Below, piece after piece: positions 361 to 17,474 of a stretch of 20,858 bases of DNA (positions within the stretch are counted from its first letter, which is position 1; each line of letters starts with the position of its first letter). Where the stretch lies: positions 1 through 20,858 of IMG/VR virus record IMGVR_UViG_3300033273_000195, one strand, 5' to 3'. Made by a program: the position numbers and the translations under genes. The notes under the pieces were generated by a model. The model did not search any database. It had not been told where the DNA came from and saw nothing but the letters and a program-made list of their open reading frames with translations. This DNA is from a virus.

Positions 361-412
361 CCCGTTCCTTCGGGCGGCGTTTGCGTCGGTTTCCCGATGA
401 ACGATCCGTTCC
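361..412 (-). promoter_or_regulatory. Probable glutamine riboswitch (Downstream-peptide/glnA class)
   Basis: Read on the minus strand, the leader of the DUF4278 gene contains CGTTCATC (403-396) and CGAAGGAACG (372-363), the two hallmark segments of the glutamine-binding glnA and Downstream-peptide RNAs. CGTTC (403-399) can pair with GAACG (367-363) as the closing helix. Inside it TCGG-GAAA-CCGA (397-386) forms a four-pair hairpin with a GNRA loop. The segment is visibly more GC-rich than its surroundings, as a structured RNA in an AT-rich phage would be. The position, about 35 bases above the DUF4278 ATG, fits cis control. Ligand and direction of control are inferred from the family. Confidence 0.72.
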
Positions 413-11556: not shown

Positions 11557-13404
11557 TTAAGTCCCTGGATATGCAACAATAACTATACCTGATCCGCCAG
11601 CACCACCATCGCCATTTCCATAACTAGACCATCCTGCCGCTGCTCCTCCTCCACCACCACTATTTGCTCCACCAGCACCACCATCACCAGAACCAGTAGG
11701 AGTACCAGACCCTCCAGTACTTCCATTATTATACCCTGGTCCACCTGATCCGCCAGTTCCTCCGCTATTATTTCCTGTAGCAGCGCCACCACCGCCACCA
11801 CCTGGACCACCATTTCCACCAGTAGCACTGTTAGTAGCATTTTCTGGATTAGCGGAACCACCTCCACCACCAGCAAAAATATTAGTTGTACCAGTAATAC
11901 TATATTGTAGTCCAGGTCCACCATTTCCACCAGTATGTCCAGATGGTTCTGGAGCAGTATCACCATTACTACCTTGCCCGCCAGCGCCGCCGCCACCAGC
12001 GCCACTTGACCTGTTGGTTACAGTTCCACCAGGATGTCCCCAACCATTTGATGGAGAAACACTACCATTTGTTCCACCAGTAGCACCAGTTGCTTGACCA
12101 GCAGGTCCAGGACCGTTTGAGTGCCCATTTCCTCCACCAGAACCACCGGGGTTTCCTTGGTCACCTGGTGAAACAGGGTGTCCACCACCTCCACCACCAC
12201 CAGGAGCGGTAAAACCAAACCCACTTGATGGATTTCCATTTACTTCACTTCCCGATGTTGGTGCAGGAGCAGGATTTGGAGCAGCACCACCAACGGTTAT
12301 TGGATATGAACCGGGTGAAAGAGGAATTCCAGTTTGGTATATCAAAGCACCTGCACCACCGGCACCAGCGTGTCTAGAAGCTCCACCAGCACCACCACCT
12401 CCAACGATTAAAACTTCGGCAGAAAGTTCTCCTGAAGTAACAGTAAAAGTTCCGCTTCCAGTGAATGTATGAACTGTCCACCCACTTCTTGTAGTTCCTA
12501 TATCTTTCGTTCCACCGGTAGCGACGAATGGAATATTTGATAAGTTATCCCATGTAGTTCCATTATATGCCTGTACGGATTTTAATGTACTATTATAAAT
12601 CACAGAACCAGCAGAGACCCCAGTCAAATCATCTCTTTGTGTTGAGGTAAAAGCACCTAAACCTAGTTGATGTTGTGATCCTAAAGTTAGTTTGTTTCCA
12701 GAAGCACTAAAAGTTAGACCAGCATCACCACCAGTGGAACCACCATCGTTAAACAATACTTGAGTATTAGAACCTCCAGTAGGTCCTGTAGCACCCTGAA
12801 CGCCTTGTGCTCCAGTAGCACCCTGTCTACCTTGAGCACCCTGTGCTCCCACTGCTCCTTGAGCACCTACTGCTCCCTGAGCACCAGCAGCACCTTGAGC
12901 ACCTACGGTTCCTTGTACACCTTGATTTCCTTGGGCACCAGCAGCACCCTGTGCTCCTACGGCACCTTGACGACCTTGGTTTCCTTGAGCACCAGCGGCA
13001 CCTTGAGCACCTACATCGCCCTGAGCACCAGCATCACCTTGTGCTCCTACAGCACCTTGACGACCTTGAGCACCTTGAACTCCTTGTGCTCCGGTTGAAC
13101 CACCAGAACCAGTATCTCCCTGAGCACCAACGGAACCTTGAGCGCCGACAGCACCTTGAGCTCCGACGGCACCTTGTGCTCCTACAGCACCTTGTGCTCC
13201 TACGGCACCTTGAGCACCAACGGCACCTTGTACACCTTGAGCACCTGTAGTTCCTTGAACACCTTGGGCACCCTGAGCGCCAGCGGCACCTTGGGTTCCA
13301 GGTGTTCCCTGTCTAACCCAAGATGTTCCGTTCCATATCCATCTGGAATTACCAGAGACAAAAATATCGTTTACTGATGGGCTATCTGGAAAGTTTAGAG
13401 CCAT
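11557..13404 (-). CDS. Tail fibre with collagen-like stalk and glycine-rich tip
   Basis: A 615-residue fibre. Residues 1-31 (FPDSPSVNDIFVSGNSRWIW...WVRQG) form a small head; residues ~33-210 are an uninterrupted collagen-like Gly-x-y stalk (GAQ, GAV and GVQ triplets dominate, with very few prolines); ~210-300 is a short linker domain (LGLGAFTSTQRDDLTGVSAG); and ~310-615 is a Gly/Ser/Asn/Thr-rich tip ending GGSGIVIVAYPGT. From the linker on it is paralogous to the 319 aa protein at 7010-7969. Trimeric receptor-binding tail fibre is the likely role. A late motif lies 28 bases before the ATG, partly within the end of the preceding fibre gene. Confidence 0.9.
   Translation of the reverse strand: MALNFPDSPSVNDIFVSGNSRWIWNGTSWVRQGTPGTQGAAGAQGAQGVQGTTGAQGVQGAVGAQGAVGAQGAVGAQGAVGAQGAVGAQGSVGAQGDTGSGGSTGAQGVQGAQGRQGAVGAQGDAGAQGDVGAQGAAGAQGNQGRQGAVGAQGAAGAQGNQGVQGTVGAQGAAGAQGAVGAQGAVGAQGAQGRQGATGAQGVQGATGPTGGSNTQVLFNDGGSTGGDAGLTFSASGNKLTLGSQHQLGLGAFTSTQRDDLTGVSAGSVIYNSTLKSVQAYNGTTWDNLSNIPFVATGGTKDIGTTRSGWTVHTFTGSGTFTVTSGELSAEVLIVGGGGAGGASRHAGAGGAGALIYQTGIPLSPGSYPITVGGAAPNPAPAPTSGSEVNGNPSSGFGFTAPGGGGGGGHPVSPGDQGNPGGSGGGNGHSNGPGPAGQATGATGGTNGSVSPSNGWGHPGGTVTNRSSGAGGGGAGGQGSNGDTAPEPSGHTGGNGGPGLQYSITGTTNIFAGGGGGSANPENATNSATGGNGGPGGGGGGAATGNNSGGTGGSGGPGYNNGSTGGSGTPTGSGDGGAGGANSGGGGGAAAGWSSYGNGDGGAGGSGIVIVAYPGT
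12778..13308 (-). repeat. Collagen-like coding repeat, 615 aa fibre
   Basis: A tandem array of nine-base units coding Gly-x-y, mostly GAQ, GAV, GVQ and GRQ. The DNA units are near-identical variants and form a clear substrate for slippage or recombination with the three blocks in the neighbouring 1209 aa gene. Confidence 0.9.
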
Positions 13405-13414
13405 TATCTAATAA

Positions 13415-16400
13415 CTATATTCCTTTCAAGTTATTTATCTCTTCTTTAAGGGAAGAAACTTCTGCTCTAAGTTCTTTGACTGCTTCAATAAGAACGGCAG
13501 TCAAGTTTCCATAAGCAACTGACTTTGGATCATCACCAATAACAAGTTCAGGTAGAACCTCTTCAACTTCTTGTGCGATAACACCGATGGAGTGTGTTCC
13601 ACCTTCAATGTAGTCAAACTCAACGCCACGCAACTTACAGACTTTCTCAAGAGCATTTGTGATAGTTGTGATATTTGCTTTCAGTTTTTCATCAGAGTTT
13701 GATGTGACTGTACCACCACAAGTTAAGTTAGTTCCATCAAAAGTAAGGTTTGCTGAACCAGCAGTAGAACCACTACTATTATAAAGAACTTGAGTATTAG
13801 AACCACCGATAGGACCAGTAGCACCTTGAACACCTTGGTTTCCTTGAGCACCTACGGCACCCTGACGACCTTGAGCACCCTGAGCACCAACAGCACCCTG
13901 TACGCCTTGAGCGCCTTGAGCACCTTGTGAACCCTGGGCACCTACAGCGCCTTGTGCTCCATCAGCACCCTGAGCACCTACCGCACCTTGAGCACCGACA
14001 GCACCTTGTACACCTTGAGCGCCTTGTGCTCCGACAGCACCCTGTACACCCTGGGCACCCTGGGCACCTTCAATAGCATTACTTGCGGTTACCCACTGGT
14101 TTGTATCAGTATCAACATAATAAACATGAAGGTTACCTGACTCAGAATCCCACCAGAGGTCACCAGCAGAAGGTGATGATGGAGTTTGAGTAGAAATAGC
14201 AACTAGACTATCACCACCGTTAGCAGAAACCCACTGTGAACTGGAACCATCATTATAGTAAACCTTCAGGTCAGCAGTATCACTCTCGAACCAGAGGTCA
14301 CCATCACTAGGACTTGAAGGAGCATCATCAGAAACAGTAACAGAAGCACTGCTGCTTGAGATACTAATATCAATAGTATTGGTAGCAGCATCATATAAGA
14401 AAGTATTTCCAGCACCAACAAAGTTCAGAGTGCTGATAGGACCACTAGCAACACTGGTTCCAGCAGAACTGATACCAAGGTTGAAACCACCAGTAGCAGT
14501 GATGATACCAGCAACATTCAGGTTGCTTCCATCAAAGGTAAAGTTGGAAGAACCAGCAGGACTATTACCAGAGTTCTTATAAACAACTTGGTTAGCAGAA
14601 CCTGCTACAGGACCAGTAGCACCTTGAACACCCTGGGATCCTTGAGCACCAACTGCGCCTTGACGACCTTGTGAACCCTGTGCTCCGACAGCACCTTGGG
14701 CACCAACTTCACCCTGTACACCTTGAGCTCCTTGTGCTCCTACAGAACCTTGAACGCCTTGTGCTCCCTGTACGCCTTGAGCACCTTGTACACCCTGAGC
14801 ACCCTGGGCACCTGCGTCTCCCTTATCACCAGTTCTAGCGAAGGTAATGATAACGTCTTCGCTGTTGCTGAAGGAAGAAGCACTACCAGATACATAACCA
14901 CAACTGACTGTGAAGTATCCAGTGTTCTCAGTCAGACTGGAGATAGTGAACAGAGCGAAGTCATCAGCATTCAGTCTATTAGAAATTCTAAAGTGACCCT
15001 TGATAGTAGAGGTAGAGTCATCAATAGTTCTCAGGAACGACTGAATATCAGTAGAGTTATCATCAGTATCGTCAATGTACATTGCTGTAGCAGACGAGAC
15101 TGTAGCATTATTGAGTTTTAGTGTGCCTGCTCCTGGGTCACTAGCAGTAGTGTTTGTGGAGAAAGTATAATCAAATGTAGCGCCACCGAAGTTACCATCA
15201 GCACCTTGAGCACCTACAGAACCTTGGACACCTTGATAACCTTGAGCACCCTGAACTCCTTGTGCTCCCTGTACACCCTGAGCCCCTTGGGCACCGACAG
15301 CACCCTGTCTTCCCTGAGCACCTTGTGCTCCTACTTCGCCTTGGACACCTTGAGCACCTTGAGCACCAACTGCGCCTTGGGCACCTACGGCACCTTGACG
15401 ACCTTGGGCACCCTGTGCTCCGTCAACACCGTTAGTACCTTGAACACCCTGGGCACCTTGAGCACCTACGGCACCTTGGACACCTTGAGCACCCTGAACA
15501 CCCTGAGCACCTTGAGCGCCAGAGTTACCAGTCCAGTTACCACCACTATCAATGACTTCTGTAGAACCAATATAAAGTGCCGATACTGTACCGATACCAC
15601 TGGAGTTGACTTGTAGAACGTCAAGACCAGTTGTATGAAGACTTTGAGTATGGAACTGAAGACCTTGTGTGTGACCTAAGGTAAGTGCCGTTCCAACATT
15701 TACAGTATTATTAGAACCATCAAGGGTAACAGAAGAACTACCAACGGTAAGAACACCAGTAACCCTAGCATTACCATCAACAACCAAAGCATCAGAAGCA
15801 GTGGTGGTTCCAATACCAACATTACCTAGAGTATGAATACCAGTTGAGTTTGATATCCATCTCTGGATACCACTCAGTAAACCAGAGTTAGCATCAACCC
15901 ACTGGGCACTATCAGTATCTTCATAATATATTTTTAGAATACCAGTGTCGCTCTCCCACCAGAGGTCGCCTGAATTTGGTGAGGATGGAGCATCATCACT
16001 AATAGTAACAGTCTCAGAACCACCAGCAGTCTCAACCCACTGGTTACTATCACCATCAGCATAGTAAATGTACAGTTCACCTACATCACTATCCCACCAG
16101 AGGTCACCAGCAGTGGGTGAGGATGGAGCATCTGTAGAGATAGAAACATTGGAACCGCCACCAGATCCTGACTGGTCAGCAAAACTTAGATTACCAGATC
16201 CATCAGAGACAAGAACTTGATTCGCACTTCCATCTGCGGTAGGGAAAGTATATGCACCATTGAAAACAATAGCACCATCTTTATCAATACCAAATCTATT
16301 TGCTTCGTTACCGTCTTTATCTCTTGTCCTCAGGTTAATAATACCAGCATCCTGGTCGGTACTATCAACATCCATCTGGAGAGAATGATAGATTGGATCA

Positions 16401-17044
16401 CTACCACCATCTCTACCGTGAACATTTAATCTGAAAAGATAATCGCCCGTTTGAACATCAGCAGGAGAAGCAATAGTTCCCCTTCTTCTGTATATTCTTA
16501 CGTCAGGAGCATCAGTACTATCATTATACTGCTCCATTCTAATCTGAGCAGTCTGAGCACCCTCACCAGTCATGTGAAGGGTTACATCAGGACTGGTCTG
16601 ATTTATACCAACATACTTATTACTATTATCAATAGTAAGAACACTCGTGGATGTTACGGTTTGTCCCGAACCAACAATTAGAAGTTCGTTTTGACTTCCA
16701 AGACTAGTAAGAGATAATCCGTCACCATAAAAGTTATAAGCAGTAACAACACCAGCAGCAAGGACAGCAGTATTGTTAGAACCTACCGCTGTAGTAACAT
16801 CGTCTGTACCGATACCAACATTACCAACGGTAAAGTTAATATCGTATGCTAATGAACCGACACCGACATTAAATGGGTTAACACATATAACAGTGGTTCC
16901 AATACCTACCCCATTCGGGTCTTGTTCTAGGTAAAGTTTACCATCGTTTGTGTTTATTGCGAGTTCTCCCAACGCCAACTGATCGGTCGTGGGAACCTTA
17001 TTAGGCGTTGCTGAACGCCTAATATAAATCTTAGGATCTGCCAT
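13415..17044 (-). CDS. Large tail fibre with collagen-like blocks and S74 auto-chaperone
   Basis: A 1209-residue fibre. The N-terminus (MADPKIYIRRSATPNKVPTT, LGELAINTNDGKLYLEQD) is the usual base of cyanophage fibres. Beta-rich domains alternate with three collagen-like Gly-x-y blocks and four copies of a module with PSSP-x-x-GDLW[WF]-[DE]SD...YY-x-D...QWV. The C-terminus from Ser1117 (SDEKLKANITTITNALEKVC ... IGVIAQEVEEVLPELV ... VLIEAVKELRAEV) is a peptidase S74 intramolecular chaperone, which in this family trimerises the fibre and then cuts itself off at the conserved Ser. The coiled-coil ending (SSLKEEINNLKGI) fits. A late motif at 17097-17104 and hairpins precede the ATG. It overlaps nothing downstream; the 615 aa fibre starts 11 bases below. 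Confidence 0.93.
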   Translation of the reverse strand: MADPKIYIRRSATPNKVPTTDQLALGELAINTNDGKLYLEQDPNGVGIGTTVICVNPFNVGVGSLAYDINFTVGNVGIGTDDVTTAVGSNNTAVLAAGVVTAYNFYGDGLSLTSLGSQNELLIVGSGQTVTSTSVLTIDNSNKYVGINQTSPDVTLHMTGEGAQTAQIRMEQYNDSTDAPDVRIYRRRGTIASPADVQTGDYLFRLNVHGRDGGSDPIYHSLQMDVDSTDQDAGIINLRTRDKDGNEANRFGIDKDGAIVFNGAYTFPTADGSANQVLVSDGSGNLSFADQSGSGGGSNVSISTDAPSSPTAGDLWWDSDVGELYIYYADGDSNQWVETAGGSETVTISDDAPSSPNSGDLWWESDTGILKIYYEDTDSAQWVDANSGLLSGIQRWISNSTGIHTLGNVGIGTTTASDALVVDGNARVTGVLTVGSSSVTLDGSNNTVNVGTALTLGHTQGLQFHTQSLHTTGLDVLQVNSSGIGTVSALYIGSTEVIDSGGNWTGNSGAQGAQGVQGAQGVQGAVGAQGAQGVQGTNGVDGAQGAQGRQGAVGAQGAVGAQGAQGVQGEVGAQGAQGRQGAVGAQGAQGVQGAQGVQGAQGYQGVQGSVGAQGADGNFGGATFDYTFSTNTTASDPGAGTLKLNNATVSSATAMYIDDTDDNSTDIQSFLRTIDDSTSTIKGHFRISNRLNADDFALFTISSLTENTGYFTVSCGYVSGSASSFSNSEDVIITFARTGDKGDAGAQGAQGVQGAQGVQGAQGVQGSVGAQGAQGVQGEVGAQGAVGAQGSQGRQGAVGAQGSQGVQGATGPVAGSANQVVYKNSGNSPAGSSNFTFDGSNLNVAGIITATGGFNLGISSAGTSVASGPISTLNFVGAGNTFLYDAATNTIDISISSSSASVTVSDDAPSSPSDGDLWFESDTADLKVYYNDGSSSQWVSANGGDSLVAISTQTPSSPSAGDLWWDSESGNLHVYYVDTDTNQWVTASNAIEGAQGAQGVQGAVGAQGAQGVQGAVGAQGAVGAQGADGAQGAVGAQGSQGAQGAQGVQGAVGAQGAQGRQGAVGAQGNQGVQGATGPIGGSNTQVLYNSSGSTAGSANLTFDGTNLTCGGTVTSNSDEKLKANITTITNALEKVCKLRGVEFDYIEGGTHSIGVIAQEVEEVLPELVIGDDPKSVAYGNLTAVLIEAVKELRAEVSSLKEEINNLKGI
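13432..13439 (-). promoter_or_regulatory. Late-type promoter motif GATAAATA
   Basis: GATAAATA on the minus strand, in the last codons of the 1209 aa fibre gene and 28 bases before the 615 aa fibre ATG. Confidence 0.5.
13811..14076 (-). repeat. Collagen-like coding repeat, block C of the 1209 aa fibre
   Basis: About 85-90 residues of Gly-x-y triplets (GAQ, GVQ, GAV, GRQ), with no Pro or Lys until the closing GATGPIGG. It joins the S74-domain region to the last pair of beta modules. Confidence 0.85.
14085..14340 (-). repeat. Two copies of the GDLWW module
   Basis: Two adjacent ~40-residue repeats in the 1209 aa fibre, each with PSSP-x-x-GDLW-[WF]-[DE]-S, a YY-x-D core and QWV near the end. 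They match the pair at 15888-16145. Confidence 0.85.
14608..14832 (-). repeat. Collagen-like coding repeat, block B of the 1209 aa fibre
   Basis: About 75 residues of Gly-x-y triplets beginning at GDKGDAGAQ and ending GATGPVAG. The TFARTGDKGDAG entry is typical of cyanophage fibres. Confidence 0.85.
15195..15522 (-). repeat. Collagen-like coding repeat, block A of the 1209 aa fibre
   Basis: About 110 residues of Gly-x-y triplets, the longest of the three blocks in this gene, with occasional Glu, Asp, Asn, Tyr and Arg. It is bounded by ordinary beta-rich sequence on both sides. Confidence 0.85.
15888..16145 (-). repeat. Two further copies of the GDLWW module
   Basis: Two adjacent copies of the PSSP-x-x-GDLWW-[DE]-SD...YY-x-D...QWV module, before the first collagen block. 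With the pair at 14085-14340 they form four related units in one protein. Confidence 0.85.
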
Positions 17045-17096: not shown

Positions 17097-17104
17097 TATT
17101 TATT
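17097..17104 (-). promoter_or_regulatory. Late-type promoter motif AATAAATA
   Basis: AATAAATA on the minus strand overlaps the HNH stop codon, 53 bases above the 1209 aa fibre ATG. The longer gap is filled by two palindromes. Confidence 0.5.
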
Positions 17105-17474
17105 ATGAGCAATTATTCCTTCTTGGACGATAGGCAAATAGGTTAGTTGGAGGGTCTGGTTTCATCCATTCTTGTATTTTTTCATACCTCTGAATACTAA
17201 AAAACTCCTGGGAAAGATACCAATCTTCCCAAGGAGTATGACCTTTATCTTGATTACAATCGTGGCAGCAGCATACAACATTTTTAGTGTAGTCTGCTCC
17301 ACCTTTTGAGCGAGGAACAATGTGGTCTAGTGTAAGTCCATCATCAGACCCACAGTAGGCGCACTTATGATCCCATTCTTCCTTTATCTTCTTCCTCCAT
17401 ATTCTCTTTGCTTCTGCTGAACTCGTTGTCTGGAGGTTGAAGACATAGGCTTGAGGGGAGTTATAAAGGGGCAT
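17103..17474 (-). CDS. HNH endonuclease
   Basis: A 123-residue protein with a complete HNH nuclease core: paired CxxC zinc sites Cys38/Cys41 (CAYC) and Cys70/Cys73 (CHDC), the catalytic DH at 50-51 (TLDHIVPRSKGG), and Asn65 and Asn74. The N-terminal segment (YVFNLQTTSSAEAKRIWR) is one I recall from HNH proteins of cyanophages and cyanobacteria. It stands alone between small genes and the first tail-fibre gene, so a freestanding homing or recombination nuclease is possible; a packaging or host-DNA role cannot be excluded. A late motif lies 21 bases before the ATG. There is no intron in the visible sequence. Confidence 0.9.
   Translation of the reverse strand: MPLYNSPQAYVFNLQTTSSAEAKRIWRKKIKEEWDHKCAYCGSDDGLTLDHIVPRSKGGADYTKNVVCCCHDCNQDKGHTPWEDWYLSQEFFSIQRYEKIQEWMKPDPPTNLFAYRPRRNNCS

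Follow-up and report, generated by a model that had tools for sequence, protein, structure and literature searches.

A predicted two-core glutamine riboswitch with a protein gene inside its aptamer hairpin in marine cyanophages

The locus

The window (the whole stretch of DNA that was analysed, a 20.9-kb IMG/VR virus record from a marine cyanobacterial virus) comes from a T4-like cyanophage, to judge from its nearest relatives and from psbA-like and transaldolase-like ORFs, which we take to be such on reading the sequence by eye. Its minus strand, on which the features of the locus described below are located, also carries two long ORFs encoding collagen-like GAQGAQGVQG repeats (11557-17044), probably coding for tail-fibre proteins, and an HNH endonuclease gene (17103-17474; Pfam HNH_5, E 1.4e-13).

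In the direction of transcription, the locus begins with a candidate promoter (638-666) made of TTGATA (661-666) and TATAAT (638-643) separated by 17 nt, with 11 of the 12 consensus letters, a level of matching that is also expected by chance in this region. The TATAAT box ends 8 nt upstream of the first stem (P1), and the predicted transcript start, at about 631, coincides with the edge of the aptamer. In 190 relatives, a similar box is found equally far upstream, and this recurrence at a fixed distance suggests that the RNA should begin at the aptamer.

The element itself, as delimited by comparative analysis, extends from 630 to 363. The 5' strand of its outer P1 (CGTTC, 626-630) is assigned to GAACG at 363-367 by the nested topology discussed below. 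It is followed by the 5' strand of hairpin P2a (UCCUAU, 619-624), whose partner AUAGGA is located at 430-435, as indicated by comparative analysis and by the covariation of the P2 stems in relatives, whose observed pairing is matched by none of 2000 shuffles. Between these strands runs a gene of 62 codons (432-620), recognised by its selection and by the position of its homologues; the A and U of its AUG belong to the first P2a strand and its UAG to the second. Then come the outer-core J2/3 (CGCAAGUA, 422-429), in which C427 would form a long-range pair with G362 and AGUA provides one side of a loop E, and the 5' strand of a shared P3 (GGACGACG, 414-421), which faces CGCCGCCC at 372-379 (a strand supported by P3 covariation) with six standard pairs and two A.C oppositions. 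Enclosed by P3 are an inner P1 (399-411: GAACG at 407-411, a GAU loop and CGUUC at 399-403), supported by two-sided changes in relatives, the hairpin P2b (UCGG-GAAA-CCGA, 386-397), visible in the sequence and in its covariation, and the inner-core J2/3 (CGCAAA, 380-385), whose C383 pairs with G406 according to the analysis of pocket pairs. The last part (363-371) contains GAA, the other side of loop E, a G, and the 3' strand of the outer P1. Downstream are a ribosome-binding site (GGAG, 335-338; a similar site stands about 20-24 nt past the aptamer in relatives), a DUF4278-like gene of 50 codons (175-327), a basic 35-aa ORF (68-175) coupled to it through a TAATG overlap, and a third, hydrophobic ORF (1-71) coupled through ATGA and running off the contig end.

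The original prediction had proposed a single 52-nt glutamine aptamer at 361-412, closed by its own stem, in front of a DUF4278 gene and two coupled micro-genes. The hallmark segments on which it relied are present (CGTTCATC at 396-403 and CGAAGGAACG at 363-372), the GNRA hairpin does lie between them, and the leader does precede an operon of this composition. However, the interval is too short to be the whole aptamer, as the conserved element reaches 630; it corresponds to the inner core together with the 3' end of a larger element with two nested cores, the most likely partner of GAACG at 363-367 is CGTTC at 626-630 and not the CGTTC at 399-403, and the gene inside P2a had been overlooked.

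Membership of the glutamine aptamer family

The prediction named a scan with the Rfam models for glutamine aptamers as a check. RF01739 (Glutamine) matches the leader over the full length of the model at 359-405, with 30.0 bits (E 3.7e-4 for 1.2 kb), but this is less than the Rfam gathering score of 35 bits, and RF01704 (Glutamine-II) gives merely 14.3 bits against a gathering score of 33; at gathering thresholds the window has no match in Rfam. The 189-nt gene in P2a blocks a full match, and the hit below the threshold is not due to chance, since the same motif recurs at the same place, before a YRG/DUF4278 gene, in many cyanophages. Several of these relatives reach the gathering score of RF01739 (ACG-2014f with 41.1 bits, P-TIM68 with 35.4, P-SSM2 with 35.1), which upholds the idea of this aptamer family in a phage setting.

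The structural features of RF01739 can also be traced in the window. The three-way junction of P1, P2 and P3, with the AGUA/GAA loop E beside P3, is formed by 363-435 together with 619-630, and C427-G362 is the long-range pair that links J2/3 to the base following P1; in glutamine riboswitches of solved structure, a pair of this kind closes the binding pocket (C19:G41 in glutamine-II, with an equivalent in glutamine-I; PMC6698751). Membership of the glutamine aptamer family is thus supported, glutamine binding is predicted from it, and a nitrogen-sensing role of this RNA would be a further step that we only infer.

The low score of the window could also be taken to mean that the RNA is a degenerate remnant which has lost glutamine binding and is maintained solely by the overlap of coding and structure. 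We consider this scarcely credible, the least probable of the readings discussed here, because both junctions have kept the pocket core (CGUUC, CG[C/G]A and GAACG, with the covarying long-range pair) nearly unchanged across about 200 elements, including those without a nested gene. The retention of the pocket pair in both junctions suggests two glutamine sites; the inner core has no loop E, however, which leaves its competence for the ligand uncertain.

Two nested cores

In the relatives, the motif found at 361-412 is preceded by GACGCAAGTA-[P3]-CGGAACG-GAT and, farther up, by a second CGTTCATC. Both halves lie within 80-100 nt in S-PM2, P-TIM68, S-CREM1, ACG-2014f and many metagenomic phages. 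The first half is interrupted in the window, where it consists of CGTTCATCCTAT (619-630) and ATAGGACGCAAGTAGG (420-435), separated by the nested ORF and containing the complementary UCCUAU and AUAGGA. The first pattern used for viral sequences was expected to produce many random matches, so that only structured ones were kept, and the comparison set consists of 204 distinct complete double elements from phage relatives. Each half offers a CGTTC-type and a GAACG-type strand, which may be joined either within halves (1-1' and 2-2', a tandem) or in a nested manner (1-2' and 1'-2).

Several lines of evidence converge on the nested form, which we regard as supported by these comparisons. RNAalifold, applied without supervision to 40 compact relatives, produced the outer P1 from 1 and 2' and the inner hairpin from 1' and 2. 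The P3 shared by the halves is paired in 83.5% of cells, with two-sided change in seven of its eight pairs (26 two-sided cells observed against 8.4 +/- 1.9 after shuffling), and versions slid out of register are paired in at most 36%; a permutation test over the 204 elements agrees with a P3 joining the halves. About ten distinct sequences from two lineages have an inner P1 changed on both sides to CAACG...CGTTG while the outer P1 is still CGTTC...GAACG (this count considers CAACG/CGTTG rows only and leaves out outer-P1 strands such as AGTTG and CAAAC, which the pattern mis-assigned). The pocket pair, between base 23 and the base after GAACG, is formed in all of 51 single phage aptamers, and it alternates between C-G and G-C in these singles and, with nested pairing, in 186 doubles; in the doubles that can discriminate (S-CREM1, L084, L089 and L092), 8/8 pocket pairs are formed by nested and 0/8 by tandem pairing. 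In every case at least 3 nt join the two strands of the inner P1, though 1-2 nt were allowed. Finally, the RF01739 model spans both halves in ACG-2014f and S-B68, and loop E, beside the shared P3, needs both halves to be complete, AGUA coming from the first and GAA from the second.

The conventional alternative would be a pair of independent glutamine aptamers in tandem, with a separate P1 and P3 for each; tandem glutamine riboswitches have been published (PMC2864571, PMC9481103), and in several loci each half has its own match to RF01739 or RF01704. The shared P3, the two-sided changes of the inner P1, the pocket-pair changes and a loop E divided between the halves all contradict it, and we consider it very improbable. 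A pseudoknotted version of the tandem is sterically allowed (as H-type pseudoknots) but ruled against by the covariation, and membership of Glutamine-II is rejected both by its score (14.3 against 33 bits) and by the inner-P1 and pocket-pair changes, which are at odds with 1-1' pairing.

Two other observations concern this fold. Two A.C mismatches, at positions 3 and 6 of P3, recur in the class with a long (8-pair) P3 to which the window belongs (372-379/414-421), and possibly represent a tertiary contact or A+.C pairs. As for a host origin of the doubled form, it was considered and rejected, the exact core pattern being present in just 11 contigs of a genome set of 84,980 species; none of these bears the title of a cultured picocyanobacterium, two come from Prochlorococcus single cells or MAGs (one also being an IMG/VR phage contig), and the others resemble phage contigs or chance matches.

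Genes inside the hairpins

Among the 204 double elements, 61 have a long P2a, 138 a long P2b, 37 both and 42 neither. An ORF of at least 40 codons is present in 58 of the 61 long P2a and in 137 of the 138 long P2b hairpins, although the pattern used to collect the elements favours a gene in P2b and inflates these proportions, so that retrieval by protein similarity alone is the fair test. By this test, 80 of 80 homologues of the P2b proteins and 79 of 80 of the P2a proteins lie in an aptamer hairpin, the one lost being at a contig end. The same holds for nearly all of the 52 proteins related to that of the window, apart from contig ends, inner-P1 variants and one case in which the inner half is replaced. 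All 13 isolates that were read individually (P-SSM2, P-SSM4, Syn10, S-SKS1, S-RIM2, S-SSM7 and S-CAM1 among them) carry a nested gene in a hairpin, and the P2b family, which corresponds to phrog_504, has tblastn matches in 311 phage records, all of them named as cyanophages. In P-SSM2 (L003, 2827-2976), a 49-aa gene in hairpin P2b is absent from the annotation.

To judge from substitution rates, the nested genes are under purifying selection and evolve as proteins: median dN/dS values are 0.17 and 0.22, with every pair below 1, against 0.77-2.0 in the other frames, though the high synonymous divergence calls for some caution. The proteins have a common plan, with a hydrophobic N-terminus and two invariant cysteines. 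That of the window, which matches phrog_13397 weakly, is predicted to form a short N-terminal helix followed by a two-helix hairpin (pLDDT 86); its nearest viral folds are short cyanophage proteins, including one of 66 aa from S-CAM1 and one of 53 aa from ACG-2014d, and a fold search of the PDB gave no significant match. A different insertion was noticed in L498 (2217-2822; also in L499), where a 201-aa ORF replaces the inner half directly after GGAACG; its N-terminus resembles a GIY-YIG endonuclease by eye (YTYYS...GYIGSRG), and Pfam gave no match for it.

The position of the genes relative to the RNA is strikingly regular. The ATG is mostly located 4-5 nt, and almost always 3-7 nt, past CGTTCA, within the stem, and the stops fall in P2a, J2/3 or P3 at a few fixed points: in the 3' strand of P2, at GGACGCAAGTAA (proteins ending in GRK) or, within P3, at GGGACGCAAACGACTGA (proteins ending in WDAND). 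One might nevertheless regard these genes as passengers, expressed independently of glutamine and stored in tolerant P2 loops of a riboswitch that controls the DUF4278 operon only. The P2 and P3 loops of the crystallised glutamine-I RNA were freely exchanged and tolerate insertions (PMC5393176), and 42 of the 204 elements have no nested gene. Such storage fits poorly with starts placed inside the stem, with so few stop positions, with two divergent families in both hairpins, and with homologues that are essentially never found outside an aptamer; we judge it unlikely, though it keeps real weight for reasons given with the folding results below.

A ribosome terminating at these stops would sit over the core, which also raises the possibility of a leader-gene attenuator, in which a ribosome at or near the nested stop opens P2a and the junction and sets DUF4278 expression regardless of glutamine. 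We find this improbable, as the nested sequence is conserved as a protein, the same downstream gene follows elements without a nested gene, and the pair of the glutamine pocket is retained.

The downstream genes

The DUF4278 assignment of the first downstream gene stands, even if the 50-aa protein falls slightly below the PF14105 cut-off (24.1 against 25.3 bits, E 4.8e-5); proteins in the same position in relatives pass it with 29.3 and 25.9. A YRG/DUF4278-type protein is encoded by the next gene after nearly all elements, whether or not they have a nested gene. That of the window covers DUF4278 only, without the IF7-like inhibitory part of IF17 (gifB), and the DUF4278 part by itself is not needed for inhibition of glutamine synthetase (PMC6316151). 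As DUF4278 makes up the N-terminal part of this inhibitor, the phage might have a role in the nitrogen assimilation of its host. No solved-structure homologue was found for a phage YRG protein, and the 35-aa coupled ORF has no match in Pfam.

Some further variants were noted in the relatives. A short basic helix (LIKKQIxKAAALHDAQI) is variously added to the YRG domain as a fusion or takes its place, for example in L031, L130, L138 (MNTL... class), L001 and L092, and this helix resembles, by eye, the separate 35-aa gene of the window. A manA RNA follows closely behind the glutamine element and DUF4278 gene in L131 (2669-2854), L134 (2676-2875) and L048 (586-780), two structured leaders thus standing in succession; in P-RSM6 the manA RNA precedes talC. 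About 58 single glutamine-I aptamers, mostly of the G23/C60 type, precede various other small phage genes (loci among L004-L123, for instance L008, L024 and L036), and glutamine control in phages may therefore reach beyond DUF4278.

Proposed working

We propose, with a probability of about 0.6, that the element is a two-core riboswitch of the glutamine-I type, with a nested pseudo-symmetric fold and a gene in P2a, and that it switches between the nested gene and the DUF4278 gene depending on the ligand. What is read from the sequences is the topology of the fold and the presence, selection and conserved position of the nested gene; to these the proposal adds the ligand, the direction and the reciprocity of control, which are conjectural. 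The outer core would be a canonical glutamine-I junction (P1 from 626-630 and 363-367, P2a, loop E and P3), to which the inner core would be attached head to head through the common P3. With a start in one strand of P2a and a stop in the other, a translating ribosome and the folded aptamer should be mutually exclusive. At low glutamine, ribosomes entering at the nearly leaderless 5' end would translate the nested gene and hold the aptamer open, while the DUF4278 gene would remain low; at high glutamine, both cores would shut, the start codon of the nested gene would be buried in P2a, and the DUF4278 gene would be switched on at the level of translation, as in the glutamine riboswitches of the hosts. 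Whether control goes as far as a true toggle, in which two interlocked glutamine sites give the hairpin gene at low and the DUF4278 gene at high glutamine, is a more tentative matter, somewhat less likely than not; were it so, the elements that carry one gene in P2a and another in P2b would place three genes under one fold.

Two results weigh on the other side. We found no supported helix that would hide the Shine-Dalgarno site of the DUF4278 gene, and this counts against the proposed mechanism; hairpins sequestering this site, or a P4 hairpin after the aptamer, were no commoner than in shuffled controls. In equilibrium folding, P2 was formed and the nested AUG largely paired before any ligand was considered, and enforcing the aptamer made no clear difference, as would be expected if the gene were a passenger. 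It is these two points that preserve the weight of the passenger explanation.

Relation to known systems

Some parts of this picture were known. Cyanobacterial glutamine aptamers are mainly tied to DUF4278 genes and turned on by glutamine (PMC6316151), both glutamine-I and glutamine-II being reported as ON switches for such genes (PMC6316151, PMC6698751), and glnA RNAs had already been seen in cyanophages (PMC9964418); the association of aptamer and DUF4278 is therefore not new (PMC6316151, PMC9964418). With glutamine-I (RF01739, as in the Synechocystis gifB leader) the phage element shares P1 (CGUUC/GAACG), P2, CG[C/G]AAGUA...GAAGGAACG, loop E, the long-range pocket pair and a DUF4278 gene downstream, but here a second, circularly arranged core caps P3, a 62-aa gene occupies P2a, and the carrier is a phage. 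With glutamine-II (Downstream-peptide, RF01704) it has in common the core letters CGUUCA, CGCA and GGAACGG and, in picocyanobacteria, the DUF4278 genes (PMC6316151); glutamine-II is, however, a pseudoknot of CGUUC with a GGAACG loop, whereas covariation favours nested pairing in the phage element. The published tandem riboswitches (PMC2864571, PMC9481103), which also have two CGTTCA...GGAACG units and are probably in part the same sequences, were described as separate pseudo-cooperative units, whereas the phage form appears as one interlocked fold with a shared P3 and could plausibly be truly cooperative for this reason. The Melnitz-type riboswitch on ssrA (PMC9004378) is likewise a glutamine riboswitch of a marine T4-like phage, but in another phage group, with another target and a single aptamer reported. 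In the open literature that could be searched (Ames and Breaker 2011 and Klahn 2018 lie outside it), neither the nested topology with a shared P3 nor genes in aptamer hairpins have been described.

Conclusion

In an mRNA, the aptamer and the coding sequence usually occupy different regions. A parallel to the present case is given by group I introns with ORFs in peripheral loops, where a structured RNA likewise houses a protein gene in a loop; the phage element differs in being neither catalytic nor, by present evidence, mobile, its nested product is unlike homing endonucleases, and the start and stop codons are themselves part of the RNA stems. Whole genes run through hairpins that would sense a ligand, so that the nitrogen-sensing RNA and the translated RNA would be the same stretch, the fold dictates the start, the stop and the C-terminal residues (WDAND, GRK) of the nested proteins, and folding and translation are bound to compete. 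The "tandem" glutamine riboswitches of the literature may, in these phages at least, be re-read as a single two-core structure, which bears on their cooperativity. The analysis also reveals small genes that had not been annotated. The nested arrangement is widespread in cyanophages, with hundreds of relatives, and its presence in long-studied genomes such as those of P-SSM2 and P-SSM4 means that tests in culture are possible.
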